Shown here: piece by piece, positions 5,575 through 60,080 of the stretch
Layout of the letters: each line of letters starts with the position of its first letter
How positions within the stretch are numbered: the stretch's first letter is position 1
Source of the DNA: a virus
Strand: one strand, 5' to 3'
DNA length: 64,000 nt
Virus record (IMG/VR): IMGVR_UViG_3300002835_006866
Coordinates: 31,852-95,851 of that record
Notes under the pieces: model-generated
The model's database searches: none
The model's input: the letters and a program-made list of their open reading frames with translations, nothing else
What the model was told of the DNA's origin: nothing
Program-made: the position numbers and the translations under genes

Positions 5575-6161
5575 GTGATGATATTTTAAAGATTGATACA
5601 TCCGTCAACTTGGGAAAAACAGAAGTAATTGAACCTTTACCAGTATACGATGACAATTCTCCAATGTTAAGAATGGTAATGCCTGAGTATACAGACCCAT
5701 TACCTTCACCAGCAATGAACAAGTTGATTAAACAACTTCATTTAACTCGACAGAAGTATAAAGGCCTTGGTTTATCCGCTAATCAATGCGGCATAATGAA
5801 AAGAGTTTTTGTTATTGGTTATGAGGACATGGAACTTGCCTTTATTAATCCAAAGGTAATCAATATGTCGGATGATTTGAAAAAAGAACCTGAAGGTTGC
5901 CTCTCTTACCCAGGTTTATTTCTTAAAATAAGCAGGCCTAGTTGGATTGAAGTAGAGTTTATCAATCAAAATGGTGAAACAAAAACTACTACACTGAGTG
6001 GTCTAACTGCCAGATGTTTCTTACATGAATTAGATCACATGAACGGTATCAGATTTGTTGAACATGCAGGTTCATTAGCAATTAAAATGGCAAAGCAAAA
6101 ACAACAAAAGATGCTTAAAAAGATAAAGAGAGCTGTGAAAAATAATGAGTTATCGATTTGA
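5571..6161 (+). CDS. def: peptide deformylase
   Basis: 196 residues with all three family motifs: GLGLSANQ (65-72; the usual second Ala is Ser), EGCLS with metal ligand C110, and HELDH (152-156) with two His ligands and the catalytic Glu. It removes the N-formyl group from new proteins. Phage deformylases usually lack the long C-terminal helix; here a basic Lys-rich tail (AIKMAKQKQQKMLKKIK) is present instead. The last 17 bases overlap the next gene. Confidence 0.93.
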   Translation: MSDDILKIDTSVNLGKTEVIEPLPVYDDNSPMLRMVMPEYTDPLPSPAMNKLIKQLHLTRQKYKGLGLSANQCGIMKRVFVIGYEDMELAFINPKVINMSDDLKKEPEGCLSYPGLFLKISRPSWIEVEFINQNGETKTTTLSGLTARCFLHELDHMNGIRFVEHAGSLAIKMAKQKQQKMLKKIKRAVKNNELSI

Positions 6162-24667: not shown

Positions 24668-26024
24668 GGCCTATACCAGAAAAGTATTACCATTCATAAG
24701 ATCAGATTATTTTTCAGACAACACAGAAAAAATTGTATTCAAAGAAGTTTTTGATTTTGTAAACAAGTATAAAAATCTTCCAACATACGAATCCCTTGTA
24801 ATCAATTTTACCGAAAGTAAAACTCTTACTGGCGACCAGGTCAAAGGATCAATAGACTTACTAAAAGAACTCCACTCTAATCGAGAAGAAAAAGTCGAAG
24901 AAAAATGGCTTATTGAACAAACTGAAAAATTTTGTCAAGATAAAGCCATTTACAATGCTATCATGGAATCTGTCCAGATTCTTGATGATAGAAACAAAGG
25001 TAAAACAAAAGGAGAAATTCCAAAACTTCTGAGTGATGCCCTTGGCGTTTCTTTTGACCAACACATCGGTCATGATTACATGAATGACTACGATTCACGA
25101 TATGATTTTTATCATAAAGTAGAAGCTAAAGTTCCATTCGATCTCGATATATTCAATAAAATTACAAAGGGTGGCTTACCGGTCAAAACTTTGAACATTG
25201 CTTTGGCTGGCACAGGCGTTGGTAAATCTTTATTCATGTGTCATGTGGCCGCATCTTGTTTATCTCAGGGTAAAAATGTTTTATATATTACTCTTGAAAT
25301 GGCCGAAGAAAGAATTGCTGAAAGAATTGATGCAAATCTTTTAAATATTGATTTGAATGAACTGAGAACAATCAGTAAAACAGACTACGACAAAAAGTTT
25401 CAAGTATTAAGAAACAAGGCAAATGGCAAATTAATCATCAAAGAATATCCAACTGCTTCTGCCTCTGCTCTACATTTCAGGGCTTTGCTTAATGAATTGG
25501 CTCTGAAAAAGAATTTTACTCCAGAAATTATCTTCATTGATTATTTGAACATCTGTTCATCTTCTAGAATAAAACCTGGCGGAAGTGTAAACTCTTACAC
25601 ATATGTAAAATCTATTGCTGAAGAGCTTCGTGGCTTGGCAGTTGAATTCAATGTGCCAATTGTATCTGCAACACAAACCACAAGAAGTGGTTTTACAAAC
25701 TCTGATCCAGGTCTTGAAGATACTTCAGAATCTTTTGGTTTGCCTGCAACTGCTGACTTTATGTTTGCTTTGATTACAAATGAAGAGTTGCAACAATTGA
25801 ATCAAATTATGGTAAAACAATTGAAAAATCGTTATTCTGACCCAAATGATTATAAAAGATTTGTTGTGGGGGTTGACAGGGCTAAAATGAGACTGTATGA
25901 TACGGAGCCTGATGCACAAAATGGAATTACAGATTCGGGGCAACCTGATGATACGCCTCCGTTGAATACATTTGGTAATCGTGAACGTAAATTTAATAAA
26001 AATTTTGGTGGTCTAAAAGTATGA
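24621..26024 (+). CDS. 41: gp41 replicative DNA helicase (DnaB-like)
   Basis: 467 residues. N-terminal domain MNRLEQTILKNLIYNEAYTRKVLPFI; RecA-like core with Walker A AGTGVGKS (from G197), VLYITLEMAEERIAERI, Walker B IIFIDYLNIC and the QTTRSGF sensor stretch. A disordered acidic tail follows. It is the hexameric helicase working with primase gp61 (47107). Confidence 0.94.
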   Translation: MNRLEQTILKNLIYNEAYTRKVLPFIRSDYFSDNTEKIVFKEVFDFVNKYKNLPTYESLVINFTESKTLTGDQVKGSIDLLKELHSNREEKVEEKWLIEQTEKFCQDKAIYNAIMESVQILDDRNKGKTKGEIPKLLSDALGVSFDQHIGHDYMNDYDSRYDFYHKVEAKVPFDLDIFNKITKGGLPVKTLNIALAGTGVGKSLFMCHVAASCLSQGKNVLYITLEMAEERIAERIDANLLNIDLNELRTISKTDYDKKFQVLRNKANGKLIIKEYPTASASALHFRALLNELALKKNFTPEIIFIDYLNICSSSRIKPGGSVNSYTYVKSIAEELRGLAVEFNVPIVSATQTTRSGFTNSDPGLEDTSESFGLPATADFMFALITNEELQQLNQIMVKQLKNRYSDPNDYKRFVVGVDRAKMRLYDTEPDAQNGITDSGQPDDTPPLNTFGNRERKFNKNFGGLKV

Positions 26025-27136
26025 GTTTGACTAAGGAACAGGCAGTTTACTGTGCAAATGTTTTTTCAAACTATTTCGATAAGTTTTCGAGAATAGATGA
26101 GTACATGAGAGAACAGAAAAAGGCTTCTATGGCAGAGAGGCCTTTTGTTTTGCCTGGTATGGGACCAGAAGAAGATTTGTTTTCCGATTTTTCTGTTTCG
26201 CCAGAGAAAATGAATTTCGAAATTGTAGAACTGCCTCAAGAGAGATGGGACATTTATTTGAATATGATTTCTTCACATTCAAACATGACCAATATTCCCG
26301 GTCGATCCCTCAGATTGGCAGTCTTAGAAACTACAACGAACAAGTGGTGTGGTTTTATTCGTCTTGGTTCTCCTGTAATTAACTGTAAACCAAGAAATGA
26401 GATGTTGGGTCAAGTGTTCACACAAGTCGATGGTGGTGCTCAAAGATTCAATCAATGTGCTATGATGGGTTTTGTGATTGTACCCGCACAGCCTTTTGGA
26501 TTTAATTATCTTGGTGGTAAATTGATGGCATCTATTTGCACGACACATGAAGTTCGTGAAATGCTAAATAAAAAATACAATATGACCACATGTTTGTTTG
26601 AAACGACTAGTCTGTATGGTTCTACTAAGGCCGTATCACAGTATGATGGCATGAAACCTTATATTCGTTATAAAGGTTTGACCGACAGTGATTTTCTTCC
26701 CATGTTACATGGTAAAACTTATACAGACCTAAAAGAGTATATTGAAAATATAATTGGTGAGCCATTGGCACCAGAAAGTGCCTCTAGTAGAAAACTGAAA
26801 ATATCTAATGCAATCGTTTCACATATCAATGTTGCTCTGAAGGGAACACCAGAGGGTGCTAAGTTTAAACAGACGATTGAAAATGCCAAAAATCTAAACG
26901 AACAAAAGAGATATTATGTTTCAGATTATGGATTCAGTAACATGATTGACTTTGTGAATGGTAAATCGAATACCTTGACTAAAGGTGAAAACTATGATAA
27001 ATTCTATCTGAAGAATGTGATTGAATGGTGGAGAAAAAAGGCCACGACAAGATACGAAAATCTCAAAACGGAGAATCGTCTGAGAAATGATATTGAAGTC
27101 TGGACTGGCGACACTGAACTAGACATTATACGATAG
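26021..27136 (+). CDS. DruA/Mom-like (DUF4338-type) protein, paralogue 2
   Basis: 371 residues. Shares with the protein at 6145 the VPAQPFGFNYLGGKLMASI and FETTSLYGSTK..SQYDGM blocks in the same order, but lacks the IGWEREK box (MLGQVFTQ occupies that place). The overlap with gp41 is ATGA-like. The C terminus is different and basic. Two diverged copies placed by replication genes suggest a DNA-related role; this is inference. Confidence 0.5.
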   Translation: MSLTKEQAVYCANVFSNYFDKFSRIDEYMREQKKASMAERPFVLPGMGPEEDLFSDFSVSPEKMNFEIVELPQERWDIYLNMISSHSNMTNIPGRSLRLAVLETTTNKWCGFIRLGSPVINCKPRNEMLGQVFTQVDGGAQRFNQCAMMGFVIVPAQPFGFNYLGGKLMASICTTHEVREMLNKKYNMTTCLFETTSLYGSTKAVSQYDGMKPYIRYKGLTDSDFLPMLHGKTYTDLKEYIENIIGEPLAPESASSRKLKISNAIVSHINVALKGTPEGAKFKQTIENAKNLNEQKRYYVSDYGFSNMIDFVNGKSNTLTKGENYDKFYLKNVIEWWRKKATTRYENLKTENRLRNDIEVWTGDTELDIIR

Positions 27137-27168: not shown

Positions 27169-27897
27169 ATGAGTGTTGCTTCAGATAAATTCGAACAAGA
27201 TGTAGCAAAGTCTATCAATAAACTTCCGGGAATAAAAGCCACTAGGCCAAAAGTAAGTACAGAATACTCGGATGTAAAAGTTGAATATAAAAACATAAAA
27301 ACTTGGGTGGAAGTTAAAATGTCACATACTGACAATCTTTCTAACCCAAGAGTTTATTATGAGGGTGGTAAATGGAAAACTACGTATAAAACACCCACAG
27401 CCAAAGCTGCTGTAGATATCTTAAATAAGTCTGCACAGGCCAAGGCCTTTATAAAAGCTATTTCTAAATTTTCTGGCATTCCGGAAAAACAGATAAAAAT
27501 TCCAACTACAAAATCCGGACTCAAAGAGCCTGGTGCTGTACCACTTCATGTTATGAAGTCTTATTTTGATCAGCCAAGTATTAACCGTTATATTGCTAAT
27601 GATGAAAATAGAGACTTAGGACAATTGGTGACGGAGCATTACACAGAAGGTAAAGCTGAGCCTGCATACTACATGCAAGCAGGAGATGATTTCTATTTAA
27701 TCTCAAAAACAAATCCTCTGAAGTTAACGGGTGTTCCTCTTTTAAGTGGTTCTGGTGATTTTAAAGTTCGTGTAGCGACCCGCTCTGAGTTTTATGAAGT
27801 TCAAGCAGAAATTAAAATTAAAAAAATGCCAAACAGTAAATACTCTGTAGCACCAGGCACAAAGAAAACAAATCCATTCATGAACATGAAAAAATGA
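27169..27897 (+). CDS. PD-(D/E)XK-type nuclease-like protein
   Basis: 242 residues. FEQDVAKSIN, then YSDVKVEYKNIKTWVEVKMS gives D...(14)...ExK, the core of PD-(D/E)XK nucleases, followed by a long basic Lys/Ala-rich stretch and an SGSGDFKVRV strand. Candidate roles are DNA repair, packaging or recombination. The catalytic core is visible, the specificity is not. Confidence 0.6.
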   Translation: MSVASDKFEQDVAKSINKLPGIKATRPKVSTEYSDVKVEYKNIKTWVEVKMSHTDNLSNPRVYYEGGKWKTTYKTPTAKAAVDILNKSAQAKAFIKAISKFSGIPEKQIKIPTTKSGLKEPGAVPLHVMKSYFDQPSINRYIANDENRDLGQLVTEHYTEGKAEPAYYMQAGDDFYLISKTNPLKLTGVPLLSGSGDFKVRVATRSEFYEVQAEIKIKKMPNSKYSVAPGTKKTNPFMNMKK

Positions 27898-29123
27898 AAT
27901 TCACAGAATTTTTAAAAGAAGGAAAAGAAGGTAAAAACCTGCATCTGGAACATCTCGAAGATGAGGTTCTCAATGGCGGTGTTGTTGGTGCCAGAAGTGC
28001 TATAAACTTTCTACAATCTCTACGTGACATGTTAGCAGGAAAATCCTCAACTAAAATAAATGTCACAACAAAATGGGATGGATCACCAGCCATATTTGCA
28101 GGAGTTAATCCCGAAAATGGTAAATTTTTTGTTGGCACAAAAGGTGTGTTTGCTAAAAACGCCAAACTAAACTACACTGAAGAAGATATCGATAACAACC
28201 ATCCTGCTGAAGGATTGAATCATAAACTCAAAGTTGCTTTAAGATATTTACCCAAACTAGGAATAAAAGGTGTTCTTCAAGGTGATATGCTTTTCACCAA
28301 AGGTGACATAAAGAAACAAAATATTGATGGCATGCAATATGCTATTTTTCAGCCAAATACAATTGTTTATGCAGTACCTTTCGATTCACCTTTGGCTTTT
28401 AAAATGATGACAGCACAATTAGGAGTTGTCTTTCATACTTCATACACTGGTAAAACCATGGAAGATATGAAGGCATCTTTTAACATTGATATTGGTCATC
28501 TAACGCATACAAAAGATGTTTGGTTCAGAGATGCTACATTTACTGATGCATCTGGTATGGCATCTTTTACCGAAAAAGAAACTGAAGATTTAACAAAAAT
28601 ATTATCTTCAGCAGGCAAAACATTTAACACAATAAATTCTTTGACATTAAATCGAATTGCTACAAGTGATGTGTTTAAAAATTACATCAAAACATTTAAT
28701 AATGCAAAGATAAGAGCCGGTTCACAAATCAAAGACCCGAGAGCTCATACTTTAGAGTTAATTCGTTATGTAGAAGATAAATTAAACAAAGAAGTTTTAT
28801 CTGCAAAAAAAGAAGATACACGAAAGAAAAGAATCAAAGAAAAAACGGATGTCATGAGATTTTTCAGAGGTTCTGCTTCCGATTTAATTCAGATATTTAC
28901 ACTAATGAATCTTTTAGTTGACTCTAAAAATAGAATCATTAAAAAACTTCAAGAGATGAAACAAGTAACACACACTTTCTTGAGAACAGAAAATGGTTTT
29001 AAAGTAACCGATCCAGAAGGATTTGTTGCTGTATCAACAATAACTGGTGGTGCTGTTAAACTTGTCGATAGACTAGAGTTTAGTCAGGCCAATTTTAATG
29101 CAGCAAAGGCATGGGACAAATAA
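27894..29123 (+). CDS. ligase-like nucleotidyltransferase (DUF6267-like) with capsid-targeting-like N terminus
   Basis: 409 residues. K60-W-D-G has the KxDG form of motif I of DNA/RNA ligases and capping enzymes, with FVGTKG after it; GVLQGDMLF (about 126-134) could be motif III, EGFVAV (E375) motif IV and GAVKLVDR (K389) motif V. Usual order, with a large helical insert. The first residues MKFTEFLKEG resemble the T4 capsid-targeting peptide. Likely activity is AMP transfer or nucleic-acid end joining; untested. Confidence 0.55.
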   Translation: MKFTEFLKEGKEGKNLHLEHLEDEVLNGGVVGARSAINFLQSLRDMLAGKSSTKINVTTKWDGSPAIFAGVNPENGKFFVGTKGVFAKNAKLNYTEEDIDNNHPAEGLNHKLKVALRYLPKLGIKGVLQGDMLFTKGDIKKQNIDGMQYAIFQPNTIVYAVPFDSPLAFKMMTAQLGVVFHTSYTGKTMEDMKASFNIDIGHLTHTKDVWFRDATFTDASGMASFTEKETEDLTKILSSAGKTFNTINSLTLNRIATSDVFKNYIKTFNNAKIRAGSQIKDPRAHTLELIRYVEDKLNKEVLSAKKEDTRKKRIKEKTDVMRFFRGSASDLIQIFTLMNLLVDSKNRIIKKLQEMKQVTHTFLRTENGFKVTDPEGFVAVSTITGGAVKLVDRLEFSQANFNAAKAWDK

Positions 29124-29917: not shown

Positions 29918-30751
29918 ATGAAAGATTTGATTATTGGTGCCAGTACCAATTACGATTGGCCTAAACTAAAATACTGGATAAACTCCATCAACCAATCTGG
30001 TTTTGATGGCGATAAAGTTCTTATTCTGATGAACTGTGATGCTGACACAGTGAAAAAGGTCAGCGAAGCAGGATTTAAAATCATCGGTTTCAATCAAGAC
30101 AACGAAGGCAATCTTCGTTACGAATCAAAAATTCCTGTTCATGTTGAAAGATTTGGCCACATTTATGAGTATCTAAGAAATAATGACTATCGTTATGTGA
30201 TAACAACGGATGTTAAAGATGTTATCTTTCAACAAAATCCAATTGATTGGTTAGAAGCCAATCTCATTTCAAAACATTTAGTTTTTTCATCTGAAAGTAT
30301 GCTTTACAAGGATGAACCATGGGGTAATCAGAATCTATATGAGACATACGGTGATTATATACACAGTATTTTTAAGCATAATGAAATTTTTAATGTTGGC
30401 GTTCTTGCTGGTCACGGCTTTGCGATACGTGATTTAGCAATAAACATTTTCTCTACTGCCATAAACAGACCTATACCAATTTGTGACCAATCTACATTTA
30501 ACTTTTTAATCTCAATGCATCCATATAAAACGACCAGTCAATATTGTAGGTCAGAAGATGGTTGGGCATGCCAATTAGGTACAACAGTAGATCCATCAAA
30601 AGTAGAAAGTTTTAGGCCTTTCTTGTTGGAAGAATCGCCTATATTAAAGGATGACATTGTAACTACATCAAAAGGAAATCCTTACTACATTGTTCACCAG
30701 TACGATAGGGTTCCAGAATGGCGTAAAATTATTGAGGCGAAATATGGCTAA
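29918..30751 (+). CDS. glycosyltransferase-like protein
   Basis: 277 residues. N-terminal Rossmann-like strand IIGASTNYDWPKLKYWINSI, KVLILMNCD, and YRYVITTDVKDVIFQ, where the Asp pair is placed as a DxD motif; CDQSTFNFLI follows. This resembles bacterial and phage GT-A enzymes acting on surface sugars. First gene of the glycan island, with GGAG site and a TATAAT at 29901-29906 that lacks a -35. Confidence 0.6.
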   Translation: MKDLIIGASTNYDWPKLKYWINSINQSGFDGDKVLILMNCDADTVKKVSEAGFKIIGFNQDNEGNLRYESKIPVHVERFGHIYEYLRNNDYRYVITTDVKDVIFQQNPIDWLEANLISKHLVFSSESMLYKDEPWGNQNLYETYGDYIHSIFKHNEIFNVGVLAGHGFAIRDLAINIFSTAINRPIPICDQSTFNFLISMHPYKTTSQYCRSEDGWACQLGTTVDPSKVESFRPFLLEESPILKDDIVTTSKGNPYYIVHQYDRVPEWRKIIEAKYG

Positions 30752-31454
30752 TGCACTTGTTATATCAGGACATCTAAGAACTTTCAGAAACATCTGTGAA
30801 GAATTGAAACATTTCATTTCTTTAAATGAACTCGATGTTTATATGTACGTTTGGGATGAAGGCAATCAAGAAGATATTGATTATGCGGTAAAATATTTAA
30901 ATCCAGTAAAATGGGCTGCAGAAAGAAATGAAATCTATGCACAGGAATTTTTAGATGCGGAATCTAGAATCTCTGAAAAAAATCCAAAAGATTTAATTAC
31001 TCCAGATAGGAATCATGTTACTCTATCAATGCATTTTGCTCGCAGAAAAGCATTTGAGTTGATCGATAAAGAATATGATAATGTAGTTTTTACCAGATTT
31101 GATACGCATTTGTATCCTTTTAAAGTGAGAAATATGGTAGAAACTTATCCTGATGTTGTGGTCACACCTACAAATGAACAGTACGGAATGGTTTCGGATA
31201 TTTTTGCCATTATTCCTTGGAAATATGCCAATAACTACTTCTTTTATCCGAGAGCAGAAAAGATACTTTCTACAAGATTCAGTAAAAAGTATAAAGAATG
31301 GCTCTCAGTAAAGTTTTGGTGGGAAAATGGTCAAAGAGATATAAAACTACATGATGAGAATCGATATTGTCCTCATATGCTGTGTATGAGAAATTACTTT
31401 GAAACAGATACGCCATACATAGTTGTAGATTTACCAGTCATGATTAAAAGGTGA
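30744..31454 (+). CDS. glycan-synthesis protein (phage/virus glycosyltransferase-like family), copy 1
   Basis: 236 residues from the ATG at 30744. ALVISGHLRTFRNICEEL start, VYMYVWD, and DNVVFTRFDTHLYP. The same layout (S-G-x-x-R, V-W-D, R-x-D) occurs in the next gene, so the two are diverged relatives. The family is seen in capsule and virion glycosylation loci. Overlaps its upstream neighbour by 8 bases. Confidence 0.6.
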   Translation: MANALVISGHLRTFRNICEELKHFISLNELDVYMYVWDEGNQEDIDYAVKYLNPVKWAAERNEIYAQEFLDAESRISEKNPKDLITPDRNHVTLSMHFARRKAFELIDKEYDNVVFTRFDTHLYPFKVRNMVETYPDVVVTPTNEQYGMVSDIFAIIPWKYANNYFFYPRAEKILSTRFSKKYKEWLSVKFWWENGQRDIKLHDENRYCPHMLCMRNYFETDTPYIVVDLPVMIKR

Positions 31455-31457
31455 AAA

Positions 31458-32159
31458 ATGAAAATTGCATTATGTCTATCTGGGCAAGCCAGATGCTTTG
31501 ACAAAGTATATGAATACGTAAAGAAAAACCTTTTAGATAAACACGATATCACTGTTTTTTGCCACGTATGGGATTTCTCTGGTGTTGAAAAGTTAAAAGA
31601 ACTTTACAAGCCACAAAACATAATTGTGGAACCACCTATTACGCCAGACTTATCAAAGTACACTAGAGTTCCACCACCACAACCAAACTGGAAAGTTAAA
31701 GATCCAGCTCTTTCAACTTATGCTCAATTTTATTCGCTGAATATGGCAAATAAATTGAAGATGCAATATGAGAAAGAAAATAAAATGGTGTTTGATTGGG
31801 TCATTCGTTCGAGATATGACTTTACTTTGAATGTAGAAATTCTTTTTGAAGAATTAGACAATCAAAAACTTTACATACCGAATTGTAGAAGAACACCAGG
31901 TCGAGATTTTGGAAATGACCAGTTTGCTTTTTCTTCTTCAAGAAACATGGACAAATACTGTAATGTTTTTAACCGCATCGATGAGTTTTATGATTTAGGT
32001 ACAACGATGATCGGTGAAGAGATGATGAGCATGAATTGGAAAACAACTGGCCTTGTTGGTGAGAACTTAGTTTATTGTGATATGAATCATCCTTTTCCAC
32101 CAGGTCCACACAATGGAACTTGGCACTCACTAATGAGAGATGATTTTGAAAAGTGGTAA
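31458..32159 (+). CDS. glycan-synthesis protein, copy 2
   Basis: 233 residues. ALCLSGQARCFDKVYEYV, FCHVWDFSG and FDWVIRSRYDFTLN parallel the preceding protein, with RSRYD as its DxD-like site. It ends with HNGTWHSLMRDDFEKW. Likely same pathway with a different acceptor. GTG start of the next gene overlaps its stop. Confidence 0.6.
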   Translation: MKIALCLSGQARCFDKVYEYVKKNLLDKHDITVFCHVWDFSGVEKLKELYKPQNIIVEPPITPDLSKYTRVPPPQPNWKVKDPALSTYAQFYSLNMANKLKMQYEKENKMVFDWVIRSRYDFTLNVEILFEELDNQKLYIPNCRRTPGRDFGNDQFAFSSSRNMDKYCNVFNRIDEFYDLGTTMIGEEMMSMNWKTTGLVGENLVYCDMNHPFPPGPHNGTWHSLMRDDFEKW

Positions 32160-32896
32160 AATTAGTCAAAGAATTAAAGGGATACTCAGAGTCTAGTGTT
32201 CACTTGATGTACGATGAAAAGTTTTTTGTCAGAAAAACGGGAGATATTCATCGTAATATAGAAAGATATGATTCATTAACAAACATAGGTTTGTCTCTAC
32301 CAAAAATCTACAATGTTTTTGGTAGTTATTATGATATGGAATACATCTCTTGTTTGGAGATGAAAAAATATCTGTCTATAAATCCAACAACGAACATAGT
32401 AAACTTTTTAAAAGAAACGATAGACAAACTCAAAGAAAAATCAATAGAGAAAGATTACACCGAAACATACGAAAAAAAACTTTCGTCTTTTGATTTTTCG
32501 AAATATGATTTGCCATTTACCTGTGAACAGTTAATCGATAAACTACCTAAAACTTTACCTTGGACTGAATACCATGGTGATCTTACATTGGAAAATGTAC
32601 TATACGACACCAATAATTCAAGGTTTGTTTTGATTGACCCCTTGACAACCGAGTACGATTCGTATATATTTGACTTAGCGAAAATAAGACAAGACTTGGT
32701 ATGTAAGTGGTTCATTCGAAATGATTCGGTATTCTTAGATTCTAAGTTACAATCGATCTATGATAATCTAAAATCATATGAGTATTTTGAAAATAATTAC
32801 CTATTAATACTAATGTTGATGAGAGTATTGCCTTATACTAAAAACGAAAAAGATAAAGATTACTTGATGAACGGGGTGAAAAAGTTATGGAAATAA
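32153..32896 (+). CDS. aminoglycoside/choline-kinase-like phosphotransferase
   Basis: 247 residues with a GTG start. The catalytic loop HGDLTLEN (H-G-D...N) and metal-binding FVLIDPL are those of the APH/choline kinase family; the N-terminal lobe has FFVRKTGD with the ATP-binding Lys candidate. In a sugar cluster the likely substrate is a sugar or choline-like group. It overlaps the nucleotidyltransferase gene, which could use its product. Confidence 0.75.
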   Translation: MVKLVKELKGYSESSVHLMYDEKFFVRKTGDIHRNIERYDSLTNIGLSLPKIYNVFGSYYDMEYISCLEMKKYLSINPTTNIVNFLKETIDKLKEKSIEKDYTETYEKKLSSFDFSKYDLPFTCEQLIDKLPKTLPWTEYHGDLTLENVLYDTNNSRFVLIDPLTTEYDSYIFDLAKIRQDLVCKWFIRNDSVFLDSKLQSIYDNLKSYEYFENNYLLILMLMRVLPYTKNEKDKDYLMNGVKKLWK

Positions 32897-33897
32897 TTAT
32901 GCCATGTGCAGGACTATCTACAAGATTTCCTAATCTGAGGCCAAAATATCTTCTTACAGATTACAATAGAAGATTGATGATTGAGAGTGCAGCAAAAAAC
33001 TTTATTGGAAAATATCCTGTTACAATCATCATTCTAAGAGAGCATGATGAGAAGTTTAGTGCTGTGCAAAAGTTAAGAGAAGCTTTTGGTGATGAAGTAC
33101 GAATAGCCGTTTTGGAAAAACCAACTTCTGGCCCAGCAGACACAGCTTATCAAGCATTGAAGGTCATGGGAATAAATGATTCAATTCTTATAAAAGATTG
33201 TGATGGGTTTTATGATTCCGACCTTGTAGAAGGTAATGCCGTCTATGTGTCAAAACTATCTAAAAATCCAGATATTCGTAATGCGCCTGCCAAAAGTTAC
33301 ACCATCACAAATGAACAAGGTTTAATCACAACTGTCGTGGAGAAACAAATCGTAAGTGATAGTTTTTGTGTTGGTGGTTATCAATTCGAAAGTGCTGACG
33401 AATATATCAAGGCATTTGAAGAGTTACAGAAAAAAGATTCTGAGATTTTTGTTTCAAATATCATTGACTACATGATTTCTAATGGCAAAGTTTTTGTCGA
33501 AAAAGATGTTGAGAATTTTGTCGATGTTGGTACCGCAGAAGATTGGTTTAAGTTCAATGATAAACCAACATACTTTTGTGATATAGATGGTACATTAGTT
33601 TTAAGTAAGACGTTTCATGATGAACCTTATGAGCCTCTGATGAATAATGTGAAGGCTCTACTGAAAGAACAAGAACGTGGTTGTATGTTTGTTTTCTGCA
33701 CCGCTAGAAATAACAAATATGAAGCATATACGAGACAAACATTAGATGAACTTGGATTTAAGAATTACGTTTTGGTCATGGAAACTAACCATGCACGCCG
33801 AGTGTTAATCAATGACTTTGCAAGCTCAAATCCATATCCTTCTGCTGTTGCAATTAACCTTCGTAGAGATGAAGATAATCTAGAGGAAATGTTATGA
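32887..33897 (+). CDS. bifunctional sugar nucleotidyltransferase-HAD phosphatase
   Basis: 336 residues, two domains. 1-220: NTP-transferase with IIMPCAGLSTRFPNLRPKYLL (G-x-G-T-R-like loop with signature Lys), a KDCDGFYD metal site and a VVEKQIVSDSFCVGGYQF acceptor region. 225-336: HAD hydrolase with CDIDGTLV (D232, D234), FVFCTARNN and a late INDFASSNPYP. Suggests one enzyme that removes a phosphate and one that activates the sugar. The fusion order resembles bacterial capsule enzymes. Confidence 0.82.
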   Translation: MEIIMPCAGLSTRFPNLRPKYLLTDYNRRLMIESAAKNFIGKYPVTIIILREHDEKFSAVQKLREAFGDEVRIAVLEKPTSGPADTAYQALKVMGINDSILIKDCDGFYDSDLVEGNAVYVSKLSKNPDIRNAPAKSYTITNEQGLITTVVEKQIVSDSFCVGGYQFESADEYIKAFEELQKKDSEIFVSNIIDYMISNGKVFVEKDVENFVDVGTAEDWFKFNDKPTYFCDIDGTLVLSKTFHDEPYEPLMNNVKALLKEQERGCMFVFCTARNNKYEAYTRQTLDELGFKNYVLVMETNHARRVLINDFASSNPYPSAVAINLRRDEDNLEEML

Positions 33898-34916
33898 ACA
33901 TTATGATTACTGGTGGTGCCGGTGGTATAGGTTCTACTTTAGCTTTAATGTTGAAGAAAAAAGGTTACGATATTATTGTTGTCGATAATTTCAACAATGG
34001 CTATCCAGAAAATCTAAAACAAAATGGTGAATATTTTTGTGAAGTTTTAAACTTAGACATTCGAGAAACAAATCGACTAAAAGAAGCATTAGATTTTTAT
34101 AAGACTGATGCTATTGTACATTTAGCTGCCATAACATCTTTACCTCAATGTGAATCGGATCCGGTTGAATGTATAGATGTAAATGTTGCTGGTACTGCTT
34201 CAGTTTTAAATGCTGCAAGACTCTCAAAAGGCCAAAGAGTTATTGCAGCGAGCACTTCAGCAATATATGAATGTAATGAAAAATCTGAAGCACCCTTTAC
34301 AGAGAACTTAAAAGTAAATCCTAGACTGTTTTATCCCTTATCTAAGAAATTGATGGAAGAAGTAATAAAGTCCTTCATTGATAACTATGGTATGGATATC
34401 GTTACTCTCAGATTCTTTAATGTGTTTGGCCCAAGGCAAGACATTCATAGATCATCACCACCTCTAATAAATTATATTGTTAGGGAATACTATAATAAAA
34501 GACCAATGACATTTTACTCCAATGGCCTGCAACAAAGAGACTATGTTCATGTTGATGATGTTGTTGACCTGATAGAGAGATGTTTAGATAAAAACAACGA
34601 TAGACTGCCCGGTGCAGTGATGAATGTTTGCACCAAAACTTTAACATCCGTTCGAGATGTTATTCAGTGTGCTGAAAAGGCTTTTGAAACGAAGTTAGAT
34701 TATAGATTTGAAAAACCTAAAAAGTTTTGGAGTGGATATCCTGAACTGTATCAAGGAGTGCCTTTATCAGAAAAGACCATTGAACGGGAGGTAAATAAAT
34801 TTGCTCTGGGTTCTTTCTGTAACGCCTTTTTGATAACGGGATGGAGACCTAATCAAAACATTGAAAAGTTAATGATTGAAACTATGAGACAAAATTATGA
34901 GCTTATTGCCAAATAA
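33894..34916 (+). CDS. NAD-dependent nucleotide-sugar epimerase
   Basis: 340 residues. Rossmann GGAGGIGS (7-14), acidic VVDNFNNGY, HLAAITS, AASTSAIYE, and the YPLSK catalytic Tyr/Lys. Substrate side RFFNVFGPRQD and QQRDYVHVDDV. UDP-glucose-4-epimerase-like. Begins inside the stop of the fusion gene, so expressed with it. Confidence 0.9.
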   Translation: MNIMITGGAGGIGSTLALMLKKKGYDIIVVDNFNNGYPENLKQNGEYFCEVLNLDIRETNRLKEALDFYKTDAIVHLAAITSLPQCESDPVECIDVNVAGTASVLNAARLSKGQRVIAASTSAIYECNEKSEAPFTENLKVNPRLFYPLSKKLMEEVIKSFIDNYGMDIVTLRFFNVFGPRQDIHRSSPPLINYIVREYYNKRPMTFYSNGLQQRDYVHVDDVVDLIERCLDKNNDRLPGAVMNVCTKTLTSVRDVIQCAEKAFETKLDYRFEKPKKFWSGYPELYQGVPLSEKTIEREVNKFALGSFCNAFLITGWRPNQNIEKLMIETMRQNYELIAK

Positions 34917-35616
34917 AAATTTAATACTACTTACCTCCGCATTGGTTCCAAACAATCAAGGCGCTGTTTCGCCAGAAGAAAGATTCAAACAAACCCTTGA
35001 GTCTATAAAATCTTTACGTAAACATTTCCCAAATGATTACATATTTTTTACAGATGGATCTTCGAATCAAATACCACAAGAATGGTTACAACAACTCCAT
35101 GATTTAAAAACTCTAGATGTTATAGCCGTTTGGAATTTTGATTCTGATATTCAGGCCTTATCTTCAGCTGGCAGAAAGAGTGAGACAGAGATAGTTCTTT
35201 TACTTAAATCGATTTCATCTTTATTACAAAATCCAGATTTGCAAAAGATGATGTATTCTGTAAAAAGAATTTATAAGTTTTCAGCCAGAACTTTTTTGAA
35301 TGATGATTTCGATCCGAAGGAACATGACCACTATGGTAAATACGTTTTTAAGAAAAAAATTGGTTCATGGATGATACCCACAAAACAAGCAGTCACAACA
35401 GACCATTTGTTTATTACAAGAATGTATTCGATGTGTCCATCTTTAATTCCAGATTACTGTCAGACACTTATAAAATGCTTTGAAACGGTGAACAAACATG
35501 GAATTGACACCGAGCATGCTCATCATCAACATATAGATAAGAAGTATCTTTTAGAATTAGAAAAACTACACTGTGAAGGCATTGTGGCCGGATCTGGTGC
35601 AACAGAAACTTACTGA
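34897..35616 (+). CDS. unknown protein of the glycan island
   Basis: 239 residues. NLILLTSALVPNNQGAVSPEERFKQTLESIKSLRKHFPNDYIFFTDGSS has the strand-helix-strand-Asp pattern of a glycosyltransferase N terminus; later IYKFSARTFLNDDFDP and TTDHLFITRMYS, the latter with an acidic residue before a large helix. Overlaps the epimerase by 20 bases. Possibly a glycosyltransferase; not certain. Confidence 0.45.
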   Translation: MSLLPNKNLILLTSALVPNNQGAVSPEERFKQTLESIKSLRKHFPNDYIFFTDGSSNQIPQEWLQQLHDLKTLDVIAVWNFDSDIQALSSAGRKSETEIVLLLKSISSLLQNPDLQKMMYSVKRIYKFSARTFLNDDFDPKEHDHYGKYVFKKKIGSWMIPTKQAVTTDHLFITRMYSMCPSLIPDYCQTLIKCFETVNKHGIDTEHAHHQHIDKKYLLELEKLHCEGIVAGSGATETY

Positions 35617-35623
35617 GGTGAAA

Positions 35624-36307
35624 ATGGATCTATGGAATTATTTTGAAAATAACACTGGTAAAAAAATTACCAAGTGGACACATTACTTTTGGGTTTATGA
35701 GAAACACTTTTCTTCTTTGAGGGATAAACCAATTAAATTACTTGAAATTGGTATTTTAAATGGTGGATCTCTACAGATGTGGAAAGAATACTTTCATCCA
35801 GATAGTTTGATCGTTGGCATTGATTTAAATCCAAGTTGTAAAAATCACGAAGATGTTGAGAACAATGTTCATGTCAGAATTGGTAATCAAGCCGATGAGA
35901 ATTTCTTACAAACTTTAGTGGATGAATTTGGAGAATTTGATTTAGTCATTGACGATGGCAGCCATCACGTTGACCATGTGAACAGAACATTCCAATTCTT
36001 GTTTCCAAAAATCTCAGAAAATGGAACATACTTCATTGAAGATACTCATGCAGCATATTGGGGTTCTCATGGTGGTGATAAAAATCATCCACAATCAATC
36101 AACAATATTTCAAAAGAAATGGTCGATAAGATAAATGCGGATCATTGTCCGGCTCAAGTAGAACCTGACTGGTTTACACGAAATCTAAAGTGTATGACTG
36201 TCTATGATAGTATTGTGGTTTTTGATCGAGGCAATGTGGGAGTCAAGAAACCAATGGAAATTGGTGGGCAAAAATCAGAAGGAGTATTGATTATCAAGAC
36301 CAGTTAA
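35624..36307 (+). CDS. SAM-dependent methyltransferase (CmcI/FkbM-like)
   Basis: 227 residues from the ATG with GAGG 5-6 nt upstream; a start at 35573 in the track frame lacks such a site. IKLLEIGILNGGSLQMW (motif I), IVGIDLN (acidic end of strand 2), DLVIDDGSHHVDH and GTYFIEDTHAAYWG are shared with the cephalosporin-hydroxylase-like methyltransferases found in sugar clusters. Last gene before the late promoter at 36310. Confidence 0.82.
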   Translation: MDLWNYFENNTGKKITKWTHYFWVYEKHFSSLRDKPIKLLEIGILNGGSLQMWKEYFHPDSLIVGIDLNPSCKNHEDVENNVHVRIGNQADENFLQTLVDEFGEFDLVIDDGSHHVDHVNRTFQFLFPKISENGTYFIEDTHAAYWGSHGGDKNHPQSINNISKEMVDKINADHCPAQVEPDWFTRNLKCMTVYDSIVVFDRGNVGVKKPMEIGGQKSEGVLIIKTS

Positions 36308-36348: not shown

Positions 36349-38943
36349 ATGAGGTTTACAGAATTTCTTACTGAGAAAGCGGAAAATCATGCGGTCATGG
36401 CTTTTGGCCGTATGAACCCACCAACGACTGGACATGAGGTTCTAGTCAATAAAGTAAAAGATGTAGCTAAAAGCGTAGGTGGTTCTCACCACGTTATCTT
36501 ATCCCATAGCCAAGACACCGAGAAAAATCCTCTGTCCTCGGAACAGAAGGTCAAACACGCCAAAAGATTTTTCCCTGGCACCAATATTTCAACCGCAAGT
36601 AAAGAGAAACCGACTTTCTTGCATCATGCCTCAGAACTGTACAAAAAAGGTGTTACACACCTACACATGGTCGCTGGTTCTGATAGAGTTGAAGAATATA
36701 AAAAGACCCTCCACAAATACAACGGTGTAAAGGATGCTCATGGCCATTTCAATTTCAAACACATAGAAGTTCATTCAGCAGGCGAACGTGATCCTGATGC
36801 CGAAGGCACCACAGGAATGTCTGCATCTAAAATGAGAGGACATGCAACTTCTGGTAATTTTAAAGAATTCAAAAAAGGCATTCCAAAACATGTTGCTGAC
36901 CATCATGCTAAAGAACTATACAACGATGTTCGTAAGGGTATGAGTATAAAAGAATTTATAGAAATTAATGAAAGTTTCGTTGAATTATTAAACGAAGGTG
37001 TTCATGATGAATCCATTTTTAAGGCAGTTTTTTTAGCCGGTGGACCAGGTTCAGGTAAAGACTATGTTCTCAGTAATACTTTAGATGGCCATGGTCTAAC
37101 AGAAATTAATTCGGATAAAGCTCTTGAATATTTGATGGACAAAGAGGGTCTGGATAAAATGATGCCAGCCTCCGAAACAGAGAAGAGAGATTTAGTTCGT
37201 GGTCGTGCAAAAAATATTACTGAACTCCGTCAAAGACTAGCACTTCTAGGTAGAAACGGTCTTATCATCAACGGCACAGGTGATGACGTAGAGAAAACAA
37301 AAAAAATTAAAGATGAGTTGGAAAAACTTGGTTATGATACTTCTATGTTATTAGTAAACACAAGAGATGAGATATCTGCAGCAAGAAATATTGAACGTGG
37401 CCAAAGAGGTGGTAGAACTGTACCAGAAACCATACGTAAAGAAAAATGGGACAATGTTCAAAATGCTCGCACAGAATATGCTAAGACGTTTGGTAATAAC
37501 TACATGGAGTTTGATAACTCTGAAGATTTAAGAAGTGCTGATCCAGAAATTGTCAGAGAAAAGAAACAAGAATTACTTCAACTGTTTAAACAGGTAAAAG
37601 AATTTACTGCGGCACCACCACAATCACCAGAAGCACAATTCTGGGTTGCAAATGAGATGGACAAAAAAGACACTTTAGAAATACCAAAGGATGGTGCTGA
37701 AAAAGTTCCACACTCAGATGCCGGTGCAGCAGAAGAAGCGAGAAAACTAGGATTGCAATACTATGGATTTGGTCGATATGGTAAAGATGGTGAAGTAACT
37801 CATCGATCAGTACATGGATCTTTAGTCATGGTCACAAAACAAGAACCTAAGCAACCAAAACTTCCAACTCCAGGTTCATCACCAATCTCTGAAGATTTGC
37901 GTAATTGGTTTGATCCGAAACATCCAAAAGGTGGTTGGAAACGTATCAATAGCAAAGGTGAAGCAATTGGTCCGTGTGCTAGAGAACCCGGTGAAGCAAA
38001 ACCAAAGTGTATGTCAAACGAGAAAAGAGCTAAATTAAGTAAGAAAGAAAGAGCGTCGGCTGTTGCTGCTAAGCGCCGCCATGATCCTGTTGCAGATAGA
38101 TCGGGTAAAGGTGGTAAACCTGTAAATGTTTCCAATTTTGGAAAAGGTAAATTGTCTGAATCAATTACTGTTTCCATAACAGGAGATACTGTAGAAGAAG
38201 TCAAAGATTTTTTCAATAACTTTAATTCACCAGTAGAGACAACGGAACAATACGCTCTTTCAGATTCTAGAAACGATCTAATAACTCTTGGTAAATCTAT
38301 GCAGCCATTTGGTGAAAAAATGGAAAATACCACAATTACAAATGACATGATTACAAATATTCAAGAAGAAAAGAAACATAATTTGTTAAAGGATAAAAAC
38401 GGAACTGTTAGAGTTTTTATGTTAAGGGCAGCAGCTGCAAAAGAAGCTCACACAAAACAAGGGACAGTTCTAAAACACAAAAACGGTTATGTTGTTAAAC
38501 TAAAAGAGGAAAAGGAAAATGTTGAAGCTTCTAAAAGAACTATTGGGGATTGGATCGAAGAGTCCAGAAAAACATGGACTGGAAGGAGCGACCCGAGCAC
38601 CGAACGAGGACTTCTCTCAGAGAGTGGAACAATACTCGCCACCGAAAGTGGAGAAACCAGTTCAGGAGATTCAAGAAGAAAAATCTCCATCTCCGAAATC
38701 AGGTCGAAGCAGAAAGAAAAAATAGTTGAATCAATTGATAAGAACATTGAACCAGGTCTTTCTATGGCAACATCGGGTGAAAATTTAGGAAGATCGGCTA
38801 CAAAAGTAAAATCACTAAAGAAGCCTTTAGAAGAATTAACTGGTGACGAAACAACCTATAGTATTGGCGCCCAAAAAGAAGATGAATTAAAGAAAAAAGG
38901 CATTGATTTAAAAACATTTAAATCTAAAAAGTTTATAGGATAA
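36349..38943 (+). CDS. multidomain protein: NMN/cytidylyl-transferase-like plus P-loop kinase, capsid-targeting-like N terminus
   Basis: 864 residues. 1-9 MRFTEFLTE, like a T4 capsid-targeting peptide. 16-165 nucleotidyltransferase with GRMNPPTTGH (20-29) and SASKMR (158-163), the HxGH and ISSTxxR signatures. 225-390 P-loop domain with GGPGSGKD (231-238), zeta-toxin/AAA33-like. 520-580 Cys-containing basic DUF6321-like region (GWKRINSKG..C543..C554). INE-S209 and LNE-G217 between the first two domains fit prohead-protease sites. A small overlapping frame is at 38519. Confidence 0.72.
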   Translation: MRFTEFLTEKAENHAVMAFGRMNPPTTGHEVLVNKVKDVAKSVGGSHHVILSHSQDTEKNPLSSEQKVKHAKRFFPGTNISTASKEKPTFLHHASELYKKGVTHLHMVAGSDRVEEYKKTLHKYNGVKDAHGHFNFKHIEVHSAGERDPDAEGTTGMSASKMRGHATSGNFKEFKKGIPKHVADHHAKELYNDVRKGMSIKEFIEINESFVELLNEGVHDESIFKAVFLAGGPGSGKDYVLSNTLDGHGLTEINSDKALEYLMDKEGLDKMMPASETEKRDLVRGRAKNITELRQRLALLGRNGLIINGTGDDVEKTKKIKDELEKLGYDTSMLLVNTRDEISAARNIERGQRGGRTVPETIRKEKWDNVQNARTEYAKTFGNNYMEFDNSEDLRSADPEIVREKKQELLQLFKQVKEFTAAPPQSPEAQFWVANEMDKKDTLEIPKDGAEKVPHSDAGAAEEARKLGLQYYGFGRYGKDGEVTHRSVHGSLVMVTKQEPKQPKLPTPGSSPISEDLRNWFDPKHPKGGWKRINSKGEAIGPCAREPGEAKPKCMSNEKRAKLSKKERASAVAAKRRHDPVADRSGKGGKPVNVSNFGKGKLSESITVSITGDTVEEVKDFFNNFNSPVETTEQYALSDSRNDLITLGKSMQPFGEKMENTTITNDMITNIQEEKKHNLLKDKNGTVRVFMLRAAAAKEAHTKQGTVLKHKNGYVVKLKEEKENVEASKRTIGDWIEESRKTWTGRSDPSTERGLLSESGTILATESGETSSGDSRRKISISEIRSKQKEKIVESIDKNIEPGLSMATSGENLGRSATKVKSLKKPLEELTGDETTYSIGAQKEDELKKKGIDLKTFKSKKFIG
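38519..38725 (+). CDS. possible overlapping gene inside the 864-residue gene
   Basis: 68 residues in the second frame, starting MLKLLKELLGIGSKSPEKHG and ending with a basic SGRSRKKK. AAAGGA lies 5 nt before the ATG. The host frame here is an atypical Ser/Thr-rich stretch, and the DNA is visibly more GC-rich than around it, as expected if the second frame is coding. Could instead be a neutral inserted segment. Confidence 0.4.
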   Translation: MLKLLKELLGIGSKSPEKHGLEGATRAPNEDFSQRVEQYSPPKVEKPVQEIQEEKSPSPKSGRSRKKK

Positions 38944-38945
38944 AA

Positions 38946-39335
38946 ATGAAAACATTTAAACAACATTTAGATGAGAGATGCTGGCCAGGATACAAAGAAA
39001 CGCCAGGTAAAAAAGCATATTCAAAAGGCTCTTGTGTAAAAGAAGAAGTTGAACTTGATGAAGTTGCAGCGTGGCAACGTAAAGAAGGTAAATCTGAATC
39101 GGGTGGATTGAATCGTAAAGGTATTGAATCATATCGCCGTGAAAATCCTGGTTCAAAGTTATCAATGGCTGTTACAACAAAGCCATCAAAGTTGAAGCCT
39201 GGTTCTAAAGCAGCAAATCGTCGTAAGTCATTTTGTGCCAGAATGGGTGGCATGAAACGCAGACTCACATCAGCAAAGACGGCACGTGATCCAGATTCAC
39301 GTATTAATAAAGCATTGAGAAAGTGGAACTGCTAA
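38946..39335 (+). CDS. basic Cys-containing DUF6321-like protein with capsid-targeting-like N terminus
   Basis: 129 residues. MKTFKQHLDE start parallels the T4 capsid-targeting form; CWPGYKE..KGSC and FCARMGG..RRLTSAKT..KALRKWNC give paired Cys with many Arg/Lys, a DNA-binding-like composition. Contains the EEVELDE linker (about residue 33). Similar modules occur as C-terminal parts of larger aquatic-phage proteins, including the preceding gene. Confidence 0.65.
   Translation: MKTFKQHLDERCWPGYKETPGKKAYSKGSCVKEEVELDEVAAWQRKEGKSESGGLNRKGIESYRRENPGSKLSMAVTTKPSKLKPGSKAANRRKSFCARMGGMKRRLTSAKTARDPDSRINKALRKWNC
39042..39061 (+). repeat. dispersed 20-bp repeat encoding EEVELDE
   Basis: The segment at 39042-39061 recurs exactly at 41353-41372 and with one change at 40900-40919, each time coding E-E-V-E-L-D-E. 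All three are in different genes of the virion-protein block. Confidence 0.85.
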
Positions 39336-40671: not shown

Positions 40672-41520
40672 ATGTCAATTTTCAATGACAAAGCACTGAA
40701 AGGTGTAGCAGAAGCAGCAGCAAAAATCATGCAACAAGAAGAACTAAAAGGCAATCAACACAAGATTGATGCCAATAAAAATGGTAAGATTGATTCACAC
40801 GACTTCAAACTCCTTCGTGCTAAAAAAGGTATGAAAGAGGAAGTGAAAGATGAATATGCACGTAAAGTGGACAAATATTTGAAAAAGAAATACAACAAAG
40901 AAGAAGTAGAACTTGATGAAGCATTTCCAACTGTTGCTGATGCAGCAAAAAGAATGAAAGATGCTGAGTCAAGCAAATTCGAAAAACAAAAATCTTCAAA
41001 AGGTACAATTTATACTAAGAAACATACTGAAAAGGATGCCGAGTATGAAGCACCAAAACCAGCTGGCCGCAAAAGGATGATTGGAAAAGGCTCTGATAAT
41101 CCAGACCACATGAAAAAAATGAAGATGACTGAAATGTTGGAAGCTTACCAAGAAGGTGGTCTGAAAGCACTTAACTCTATGTTGGTTGTTGAAGAACCAG
41201 ACAATGAGCAATTTACAAAAGAGTTTGAAGATCAGAAGGCTTCAATGGAAGGCAAGAAAAAACAGCCATCTGTTGCTGCAGCAGCAACTAAGGGCGTAAA
41301 AGAAATGCCTGAAGAAACTGATGTTGATCCGGATGATTTTATTTCAGAAACCGAAGAAGTTGAACTTGATGAGCGTACATTGACAAAGGGTGAAGCAGAA
41401 ACAAAAGAAAAGTATGTAAAAGGTATGAAGAAAGGACTATCAGGTTTCAAAGCTCGTTATGGTGAACGTGCTAAGTCGGTTATGTATGCCACAGCTACCA
41501 AAATGGCTAAAAAGGATTAA
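40672..41520 (+). CDS. EF-hand-containing modular virion-associated protein
   Basis: 282 residues. An EF-hand loop D33-A-N35-K-N37-G-K39-I-D41-S-H-D44 has all six calcium-binding positions. Two EEVELDE linkers follow (near residues 77-83 and 227-233) and the rest is Lys/Glu-rich and helical. GGAGAG ribosome site. Calcium binding is inferred from the loop; the L-D-E endings are candidate prohead-protease sites. Confidence 0.65.
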   Translation: MSIFNDKALKGVAEAAAKIMQQEELKGNQHKIDANKNGKIDSHDFKLLRAKKGMKEEVKDEYARKVDKYLKKKYNKEEVELDEAFPTVADAAKRMKDAESSKFEKQKSSKGTIYTKKHTEKDAEYEAPKPAGRKRMIGKGSDNPDHMKKMKMTEMLEAYQEGGLKALNSMLVVEEPDNEQFTKEFEDQKASMEGKKKQPSVAAAATKGVKEMPEETDVDPDDFISETEEVELDERTLTKGEAETKEKYVKGMKKGLSGFKARYGERAKSVMYATATKMAKKD

Positions 41521-41522
41521 TT

Positions 41523-42410
41523 ATGCCTAATTTAAGATTTAGAAAGCTACGTGAAGGTGTAGCTGAAAAATTGCATAGTAAACAGCAAGAACTTCGTAAG
41601 AAGAGTGGCTTACCTCATCCCGATTACTATAAAGAGTTGGGTAAATCTTACGATATTAAAGATGACAGTGAACGTATGGCGCATCAATCTTCTCTGAAGA
41701 AGAAGTATAGTGTCAAAGAAGAAGTGGAACATTTGGAAGAAAAGAATGTTCCAACTTCTCCAGAAAAATGGGCAAGAGCCAAAGCACAAGCAAAGGCTAA
41801 GTTTGATGTTTACCCTAGTGCTTATGCGAACGGTTGGGCTGCAAAGAAATACAAAGAAATGGGTGGTGGTTGGAAATCTGTGAGCGAACAGAAAGATGAA
41901 GGTGAATACGATTATGAAGGAGACATGGCAAAAACTCAACTGAAAACTATCATTCGAAATGCACAAGAATTACATGATATGTTAGAAGATGATGAGAACA
42001 TGCCAGAATGGGTACAATCTAAAATTACCTTAGCAAAAGATTATATTGTAGTCGCTTCCAATTATATGCAAAGTGTTATGGAAGAATCTGTTGACCGTTA
42101 TGGTTCTGCAGCATCTGAAACATATCAGACCAAGCCAAATAAAGAGCCAATGAAGAAGTATGGCGACACAAAAGAAAAAATTGACGAGCAACACCGTGAT
42201 AAAGGCAGATTTAGACCTGTCATCCCTCATATGGTAAAGGCCTCTCATGTGGCATCACCAAGAGATAGACAATATAAAGTTGATGAAGAAAACGGTCAAT
42301 CTGTAAAAGCGCAGATTGTTAAGAACGCTGCAAAGAAAAAGAAAGAAGAACCTTCAGACAAGTTTCAAGCAGATCCAGTTTTATCAACAACTATAACAAA
42401 AAATTATTAA
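41523..42410 (+). CDS. modular protein with DUF5872-like domain
   Basis: 295 residues. N-terminal RFRKLREGVAEKLHSKQQELRKKSGLPHPDYYKELG, then VPTSPEKWARAKAQAKAKFDVYPSAYANGWAAKKYK (76-111), the DUF5872-like module, then an acidic EGDMAKTQLKTIIRNAQELHDMLEDDENMPEWVQSKITLAKDYI helical module. Lys-rich tail. Same modular style as the previous gene; a virion-internal or core protein is plausible. Confidence 0.6.
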   Translation: MPNLRFRKLREGVAEKLHSKQQELRKKSGLPHPDYYKELGKSYDIKDDSERMAHQSSLKKKYSVKEEVEHLEEKNVPTSPEKWARAKAQAKAKFDVYPSAYANGWAAKKYKEMGGGWKSVSEQKDEGEYDYEGDMAKTQLKTIIRNAQELHDMLEDDENMPEWVQSKITLAKDYIVVASNYMQSVMEESVDRYGSAASETYQTKPNKEPMKKYGDTKEKIDEQHRDKGRFRPVIPHMVKASHVASPRDRQYKVDEENGQSVKAQIVKNAAKKKKEEPSDKFQADPVLSTTITKNY

Positions 42411-59660: not shown

Positions 59661-60080
59661 ATGCGAGTGGGATTTACTTGTTCATGTTTTGATTTACTTC
59701 ATGCCGGCCATGTTCTAATGCTCAAAGAAGCAAAAGACCAATGTGATTATCTTATTGTGGGATTACAAACCGATCCAACAATAGATAGAACAACCAAAAA
59801 TAAACCAATTCAAAGTGTGACCGAAAGGTTCATTCAATTATCTGCCGTAAAATATGTTGATGAAATTGTGGTTTACGAGTCAGAGGACGATTTACTCCAA
59901 ATACTCAAAGCCTATAATATAGATGTTAGAATTATCGGCGAAGAGTACAAAGATAAGTTTTTCACGGGTAATGATTTGCCAATGGAAATACACTTCAATA
60001 AAAGAACCCACAAGTTTTCATCTACCGAATTGAGAAACAGGATCGTGAGTGCATATGAGACTGAGATTTACAAAAAATGA
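59661..60080 (+). CDS. cytidylyltransferase-like (TagD/RibF-type) protein
   Basis: 139 residues. FDLLHAGHVLML with HxGH, and KFSSTELRNR with the ISSTxxR-like C-terminal signature. Length and motifs are those of glycerol-3-phosphate cytidylyltransferases. Likely makes a CDP-alcohol or sugar precursor. A second HxGH-type enzyme is part of the 864-residue protein. Confidence 0.85.
   Translation: MRVGFTCSCFDLLHAGHVLMLKEAKDQCDYLIVGLQTDPTIDRTTKNKPIQSVTERFIQLSAVKYVDEIVVYESEDDLLQILKAYNIDVRIIGEEYKDKFFTGNDLPMEIHFNKRTHKFSSTELRNRIVSAYETEIYKK

Follow-up and report, generated by a model that had tools for sequence, protein, structure and literature searches.

A predicted cleavable internal head protein joining a nucleotidyltransferase to a zeta-like kinase in a T4-like phage

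Internal head proteins and related multidomain systems

The first 10 residues of the T4 internal head protein IPIII are enough for packaging; residues 4 and 7 chiefly serve targeting, residues 8 and 10 control processing, and cleavage by gp21 follows L/I-x-E (PMC9026906). T4 trims its internal proteins at the ends, and its core proteins undergo many cuts, mostly to clear them from the head (PMC9026906). The phage protein analysed here, referred to as the composite protein, resembles T4 IPI-III, Alt and gp21 in its N-terminal aromatic-x-x-aromatic-(L/I)-x-E, its L/I-x-E sites and an accompanying Peptidase_S77 gene. As with T4 internal head proteins, homologues of one of its domains, the nucleotidyltransferase, are found in virions. 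It is unlike them in that the tag recurs inside the chain, before a kinase and another module, implying several released proteins.

The 'cytidyltransferase/NMNAT' virion proteins of cyanophages (T4-GC190, PHROG 395/3041) belong to the same nucleotidyltransferase family, identity to isolates being mostly ~36–44%. They share the N-terminal tag and have been detected in virions, but lack the fused zeta-like kinase. NadR likewise places a nucleotidyltransferase of the HxGH superfamily before a P-loop kinase, although both of its domains are from other families and a cleavable joint is predicted in the composite protein only. The kinase resembles Zeta toxin and PezT in its Pfam Zeta_toxin match above cut-off, best fold match, Walker A and GTG motif, and is set apart from them by its phage head context. 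Polyvalent proteins also carry many domains in one delivered chain intended for proteolytic separation (Iyer 2017, PMC5512222), and their domains include zeta-like kinases (PMC5512222). They bring their own peptidase domains, whereas the head protease would cut the composite protein; Pfam, PHROGs and NCBIfam scans found no polyvalent-protein peptidase or hallmark domain (ART, ParB, MuF and others) in it.

The window, the whole stretch of 64,000 nucleotides that was analysed, spans bases 31852–95851 of a 95.9-kb IMG/VR virus record from an uncultured T4-like (Kyanoviridae-like) aquatic phage. T4-type head genes on this record encode a portal, core proteins, a Peptidase_S77 protease and a Gp23 capsid protein (475 bits). 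Named carriers of related genes are HTVC008M, Melnitz and cyanophages, with the classification Kyanoviridae. The 864-aa ORF of the composite protein is intact (Table 1). Homologues of the composite protein are present in 531 phage records, almost all of them matched via the nucleotidyltransferase; a kinase search matched no more than 8 records, drawn from three kinds of phage. Among viral contigs, a whole-protein search gave 25 loci, 23 of which have the fusion. As the homologues share kinship, such counts are of non-independent events, and independence is supplied by differing contexts. UniProt already holds an uncultured-phage protein, annotated as a cytidyltransferase, with the same kinase fold; the composite protein has no match among PADLOC defence families. 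It is probably a cleavable internal head protein of separate enzymes, packed in the head and injected.

Table 1. Positions of the composite protein, its domains, motifs and predicted cleavage sites, and two tagged neighbours in the window (↓, predicted cut).
Feature	Residues	Position	Strand	Basis
Composite protein: nucleotidyltransferase, zeta-like kinase and C-terminal modules	864 aa	36349..38943	+	Profile matches; viral-contig homologues
N-terminal tag MRFTEFLTE; predicted gp21 cut after aa 9	1–9	36349..36375	+	Motif model, conservation, T4 spacing
Nucleotidyltransferase domain, TxGH family	14–202	36388..36954	+	PHROG profiles, alignment, AlphaFold model, fold search
Motif GRMNPPTTGH	20–29	36406..36435	+	N23, P24, T26, G28, H29 invariant in 64 sequences
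Motif GMSASKMR	156–163	36814..36837	+	G156, S158, K161, R163 invariant (alignment of 64 sequences)
INE, first joint of the original prediction	206–208	36964..36972	+	Conservation absent in homologues
Embedded tag FVELLNE; predicted cut LNE↓G after base 36996	210–216	36976..36996	+	Conservation, motif model
Zeta-toxin/AAA_33-like P-loop kinase domain	217–440	36997..37668	+	Pfam, alignment, model, fold search
Walker A GGPGSGK	231–237	37039..37059	+	Invariant in 56 sequences
KLGLQYYGFGRYG..THRSVHG module	460–495	37726..37833	+	Alignment; by inspection
ISE↓D, predicted site preceding DLRNWF module	513–515	37885..37893	+	Conservation
DLRNWF..CAREPGEAKPKCM module, end = LSE↓S	516–604	37894..38160	+	phrog_727/3477, alignment
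C-terminal region, variable, no assigned function	605–864	38161..38940	+	Alignment of homologues
DUF6321, next gene, tag-like start MKTFKQHLDE↓R		38946..39335	+	ORF list, Pfam, motif scan
DUF6267 gene, perfect tag MKFTEFLKE↓G		27894..29123	+	Motif scan, profiles

Nucleotidyltransferase and kinase domains

Residues 9–202 match the PHROG 'cytidyltransferase' profiles phrog_3041 (E 4.7e-68) and phrog_395 (E 2.6e-42), and Pfam CTP_transf_like scores 15.8 bits on the domain, under its cut-off of 21. The AlphaFold model, with a mean pLDDT of 91.5, has a nucleotidyltransferase fold. The original prediction had described HxGH and ISSTxxR motifs; the nucleotidyltransferase itself stands, with the motifs corrected to GRMNPPTTGH (TxGH) and GMSASKMR. 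The model lies closest to NadD (E 1.3e-5) and NadM (1.6e-4), which are NaMN and NMN adenylyltransferases, followed by FAD synthetase and TmcAL, at TM-scores of only ~0.5. Searching PDB sequences with the nucleotidyltransferase profile gave CoaD as the best match, a weak one (E 0.0085); a single-sequence PDB search returned noise only, and an NCBIfam scan made no specific assignment. The domain most likely adenylylates a small molecule, for which an NMN-type substrate is the best single guess, if a tentative one. A second, ordinary HxGH nucleotidyltransferase, heptose adenylyltransferase-like and without a tag, is encoded at 59661–60080 (+; Pfam 64.5 bits).

The CoaD match, together with the appearance of dephospho-CoA kinase among the fold matches of the kinase, would fit a CoA-synthase-like pair of phosphopantetheine adenylyltransferase and dephospho-CoA kinase. 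Such a pair is very improbable, given that the scores are weak, that TIGR01510 is far under its cut-off in relatives and that NadD and NadM folds fit better.

In the kinase, residues 225–373 score above the Pfam cut-offs for both Zeta_toxin (PF06414; 45.5 bits versus 22.3) and AAA_33 (28.1 versus 27), bearing out the zeta-toxin-like P-loop domain that had been proposed. The model (mean pLDDT 89.2) is closest to zeta toxin (2e-7), adenylate kinase and bacterial polynucleotide kinase; matches by sequence and fold are to these three and not to ribosylnicotinamide kinase. The domain is predicted to phosphorylate a metabolite or nucleotide. Zeta toxin being the top fold match, and Zeta_toxin and AAA_33 the only families above Pfam cut-offs, the freed kinase might act as an injected zeta-type toxin, phosphorylating a UDP-amino sugar and blocking cell-wall synthesis; zeta-like kinases are known in phage MuF fusions (PMC5512222). 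However, polynucleotide and adenylate kinases fit almost equally well, and a toxin role appears improbable.

The kinase fits also touch on nucleic-acid repair. Bacterial polynucleotide kinases are the best folds after normalisation to the target (TMt 0.72–0.73), T4 Pnk matches the kinase at E 2.6e-5, and the HTVC008M kinase matches seryl-tRNA(Sec) kinase at E 2.5e-10, under cut-off. One locus (L114) has a domain with a weak likeness to Tpt1 (E 0.016) fused ahead of the kinase, with 252 aa upstream of the P-loop. The tagged DUF6267 protein, whose family is joined to the nucleotidyltransferase in phrog_455, contains TKWDGSP, similar to the KxDGxP motif of nucleotidyl-transferring ligases. A polynucleotide or tRNA kinase could then work in a repair set with the nucleotidyltransferase and with DUF6267 as an injected, ligase-like protein. 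This arrangement is doubtful: every match is under the family cut-off, the ligase-like reading of DUF6267 hangs on one motif, and the usual substrates of HxGH nucleotidyltransferases are small molecules.

A likeness to NadR had been proposed at the outset, whereby an uncut bifunctional NAD enzyme would phosphorylate nicotinamide riboside, adenylylate NMN and restore NAD+ against NAD-depleting defences. The likeness holds for the order of nucleotidyltransferase and P-loop kinase but not for the families. The window protein has no NadR/NadM family match (TIGR01526, PRK08099), and membership of NadR was rejected on profiles, as homologues reach ~18 bits against a NadR cut-off of 341 bits. In fold searches, NadD and NadM proved to be the nearest solved folds of the nucleotidyltransferase; NadR was absent from the best 50 fold matches of the kinase and from its listed sequence matches, in which zeta, adenylate and polynucleotide kinases are nearest. 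TxGH and GMSASKMR stand in place of the NadR/NadM motifs, and the conserved cleavable joint speaks against a functional fusion. A search for NadV (PF04095) found no match in 9 of 10 records, some complete ones among them (record G000 is a fragment); NadR does not require NadV. Gene arrangement offers this reading some encouragement, since 12 loci have a stand-alone kinase gene directly upstream of that for the nucleotidyltransferase, and the kinase is also fused to a second HxGH nucleotidyltransferase family, one copy of which (L076) has archaeal NMNAT as its best specific match (E 6e-8, far under cut-off). Taken over both domains, the NadR idea is weakly supported and improbable.

Packaging tag and predicted joints

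The N-terminal tag of the composite protein is hydrophobic-x-E in all 37 homologues compared and is modelled as a flexible segment (pLDDT ~65). Aromatic-x-x-aromatic-(L/I)-x-E opens the nucleotidyltransferase proteins of many contigs, and the spacing of the tag is identical to that of the T4 IPIII capsid-targeting sequence, MKTYQEFIAE; targeting and processing in T4 map to these same positions. The gp21-type protease on the window's record matches Peptidase_S77 (PF03420) at 127.3 bits, and a gp21-type protease is present in 9 of the 10 records carrying these genes. The phage's own capsid protein has LNE↓T where a head-protease site is expected; major capsid protein sites in other genomes were not recovered, the loci being too short or the pattern unmatched. 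Domains, conserved joints, tag pattern and a protease gene in the same genome can all be read directly from the sequence.

Mass spectrometry has detected homologues of the nucleotidyltransferase in virions of S-SM1 (T4-GC190; PMC3037559), S-SCSM1 (PMC9602691) and S-CREM2 (PMC10665884), and the last paper also cites S-SZBM1 and S-CBWM1; these published detections cover unfused homologues only. The cyanophage homologues carry a published annotation as NMNAT virion proteins (PMC9602691). The authors of these studies cautioned that virion detection may reflect carry-over (PMC9602691, PMC10665884). Three of the virion homologues begin with perfect tags (MKSFLQFLKE↓A in S-SCSM1, MKNFSSFLTE↓A in S-CREM2 and MRFRQFIIE↓A in S-SZBM1), and a packaging tag argues against carry-over as the source of the virion nucleotidyltransferases. 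Few S-SCSM1 ORFs (4 of 309) carry the strict tag, and across the proteome of this phage the tag was not associated with virion detection (1/48 versus 3/261, Fisher p 0.49). The homologues of HTVC008M and S-PM2 are without a clear tag.

Two protease-pattern joints had been proposed between the nucleotidyltransferase and the kinase. Both are present there, and their fates differ: INE↓S was rejected, as the homologue alignment shows no conservation of it, and L-x-E↓GVHD was kept. In 38 fused homologues the LNE↓G joint (aa 214–216) is invariably hydrophobic-x-E followed by Gly at P1′, with Leu (35) or Ile (3) at P3 and P2 free to vary. A conserved hydrophobic P3 and upstream Phe with a variable P2 is the pattern expected of a protease site. 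Furthermore, the joint segment is modelled as flexible, at low confidence (pLDDT 62–68), beside confident domains.

A position-specific motif model, trained on the N-termini of unfused nucleotidyltransferases only, ranked aa 9 (FTEFLTE↓K) first among 830 alignment columns, with a column mean of 11.4, and aa 216 (FVELLNE↓G) second, at 6.5. For the window protein alone, motif matches were not significantly above shuffles (p about 0.08–0.11), and the case for the joints therefore rests on their conservation in homologues and in different contexts. Folded domains contain (L/I)xE triplets as well; a conserved LxE lies at aa 252 within the kinase, so the triplet by itself proves nothing.

LxE↓G might instead be a structural lead-in of the kinase, the protein being an ordinary multidomain chain that is never cut. 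All nine kinases in the alignment keep E-G-x-x-D unchanged, regardless of the upstream partner; it could serve folding, which would suit a lead-in as does the presence of LxE in folded parts. This is nevertheless unlikely, as the protease-like P3, Phe and P2 pattern, the flexibility of the segment and the recurrence of the same rule at the N-terminus and before the unrelated DLRxWF module all point the other way. A proteolytic joint at LNE↓G is a well supported prediction on this conservation.

The DLRxWF module is directly preceded by Glu in 62 of 62 occurrences and by hydrophobic-x-E in 59 of these. The Glu rule spans N-terminal (e.g. MKSFKQFVNE↓DLRKWF), internal and window-fusion occurrences. 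Some homologues lack the DLRNWF module, and most retain the LxE↓S-type end (LxE↓S or IKE↓S). The original prediction is extended by the N-terminal tag and by two sites flanking the DLRNWF module, ISE↓D (aa 515) before it as the third and LSE↓S (aa 604) after it as the fourth. A point against the internal-head-protein reading is that P1′ is not uniform across site classes: Q/A/N/K for the tag, G for the joint and D ahead of DLRxWF. In the S-MbCM6 nucleotidyltransferase protein, a stretch that by inspection resembles the THRSVHG module, AEKLGLKHVGYGNY..THRSVDG, directly follows the N-terminal tag.

The neighbouring DUF6321 gene product is probably the same type of protein as the composite protein. 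EEVELDE or EEVEHLEE is repeated between segments of the proteins at 38946–39335, 40672–41520 and 41523–42410 (+), and may mark head-protease joints. Core-region proteins of the same phage (L036:5181–5858 and 5855–6286) contain VELNE↓AP and GEVNE↓AR, which may be additional gp21 sites. Products of the upstream gene run at 29918–36307 (+) include a fused nucleotidyl transferase-HAD protein, an epimerase-like protein and a methyltransferase, and the run is perhaps glycan-related; the gene at 26021–27136 (+), beside a replicative helicase, encodes a Druantia DruA-like domain (39 bits in Pfam, E 5e-10 in PADLOC).

Module exchange and proposed delivery

The kinase was found in 78 distinct contexts, 32 of which are stand-alone starts with tag and joint site; the others are fused or run off the contig end. 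Stand-alone kinases begin at the joint site, as in MKTFAELQE↓GVYD, the form in which Melnitz carries the kinase alone, MLKFSQFLNE↓GIND and MKSFEQILSE↓GLYD. HTVC008M encodes the kinase separately, in a gene upstream of that for the nucleotidyltransferase, and in Atu_ph07 the kinase lies behind another domain, with the joint VTE↓GVND. A duplicated domain ahead of that kinase (L030:4254–6590) resembles, by eye, Alt-type ADP-ribosyltransferases. In six contigs (L040, L041, L042, L052, L055 and L071) the partner ahead of the kinase and its joint is a different nucleotidyltransferase, bearing GGGFQPFHAGH, and in L076 the kinase follows an HxGH nucleotidyltransferase with PGRFQIFHKGH; in these fusions one enzyme has been swapped for a distant relative.

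For the preferred reading, an internal head protein, the following sequence of events is proposed. The MRFTEFLTE tag would take the protein into the prohead core, as T4 IPIII capsid-targeting sequences do. The phage's gp21-type protease would then cleave behind the LxE Glu, both in the tag and at LNE↓G, with further gp21-type cuts probable at ISE↓D and LSE↓S on either side of the DLRNWF module. The freed enzymes would stay in the head alongside the DNA and enter the host upon infection. Here we infer cleavage of the composite protein, from site conservation, as well as its injection and all substrates.

Cyanophage virion-borne 'NMNAT', T4 capsid-targeting sequences and multidomain injected proteins are already known. 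What is new is the repetition of tag and site within one chain, ahead of two independent modules; the literature search found no paper tying such tags to cyanophage virion enzymes. A wider proposal, evenly poised between right and wrong, is that aquatic T4-like phages make cleavable polyproteins of head-packed enzymes. The modules (nucleotidyltransferase, kinase, DLRxWF and others), each with its own capsid-targeting and gp21 site, would be shuffled between genes, and the head protease would process an injected effector set.

If true, a T4-type packaging tag would explain the recurrent 'NMNAT/cytidyltransferase' of cyanophage virions and answer the carry-over doubt of the authors who reported it. 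It would also provide a sequence rule for spotting injected proteins in abundant aquatic phages, and would suggest that a head maturation protease can also release several effector enzymes from one chain.
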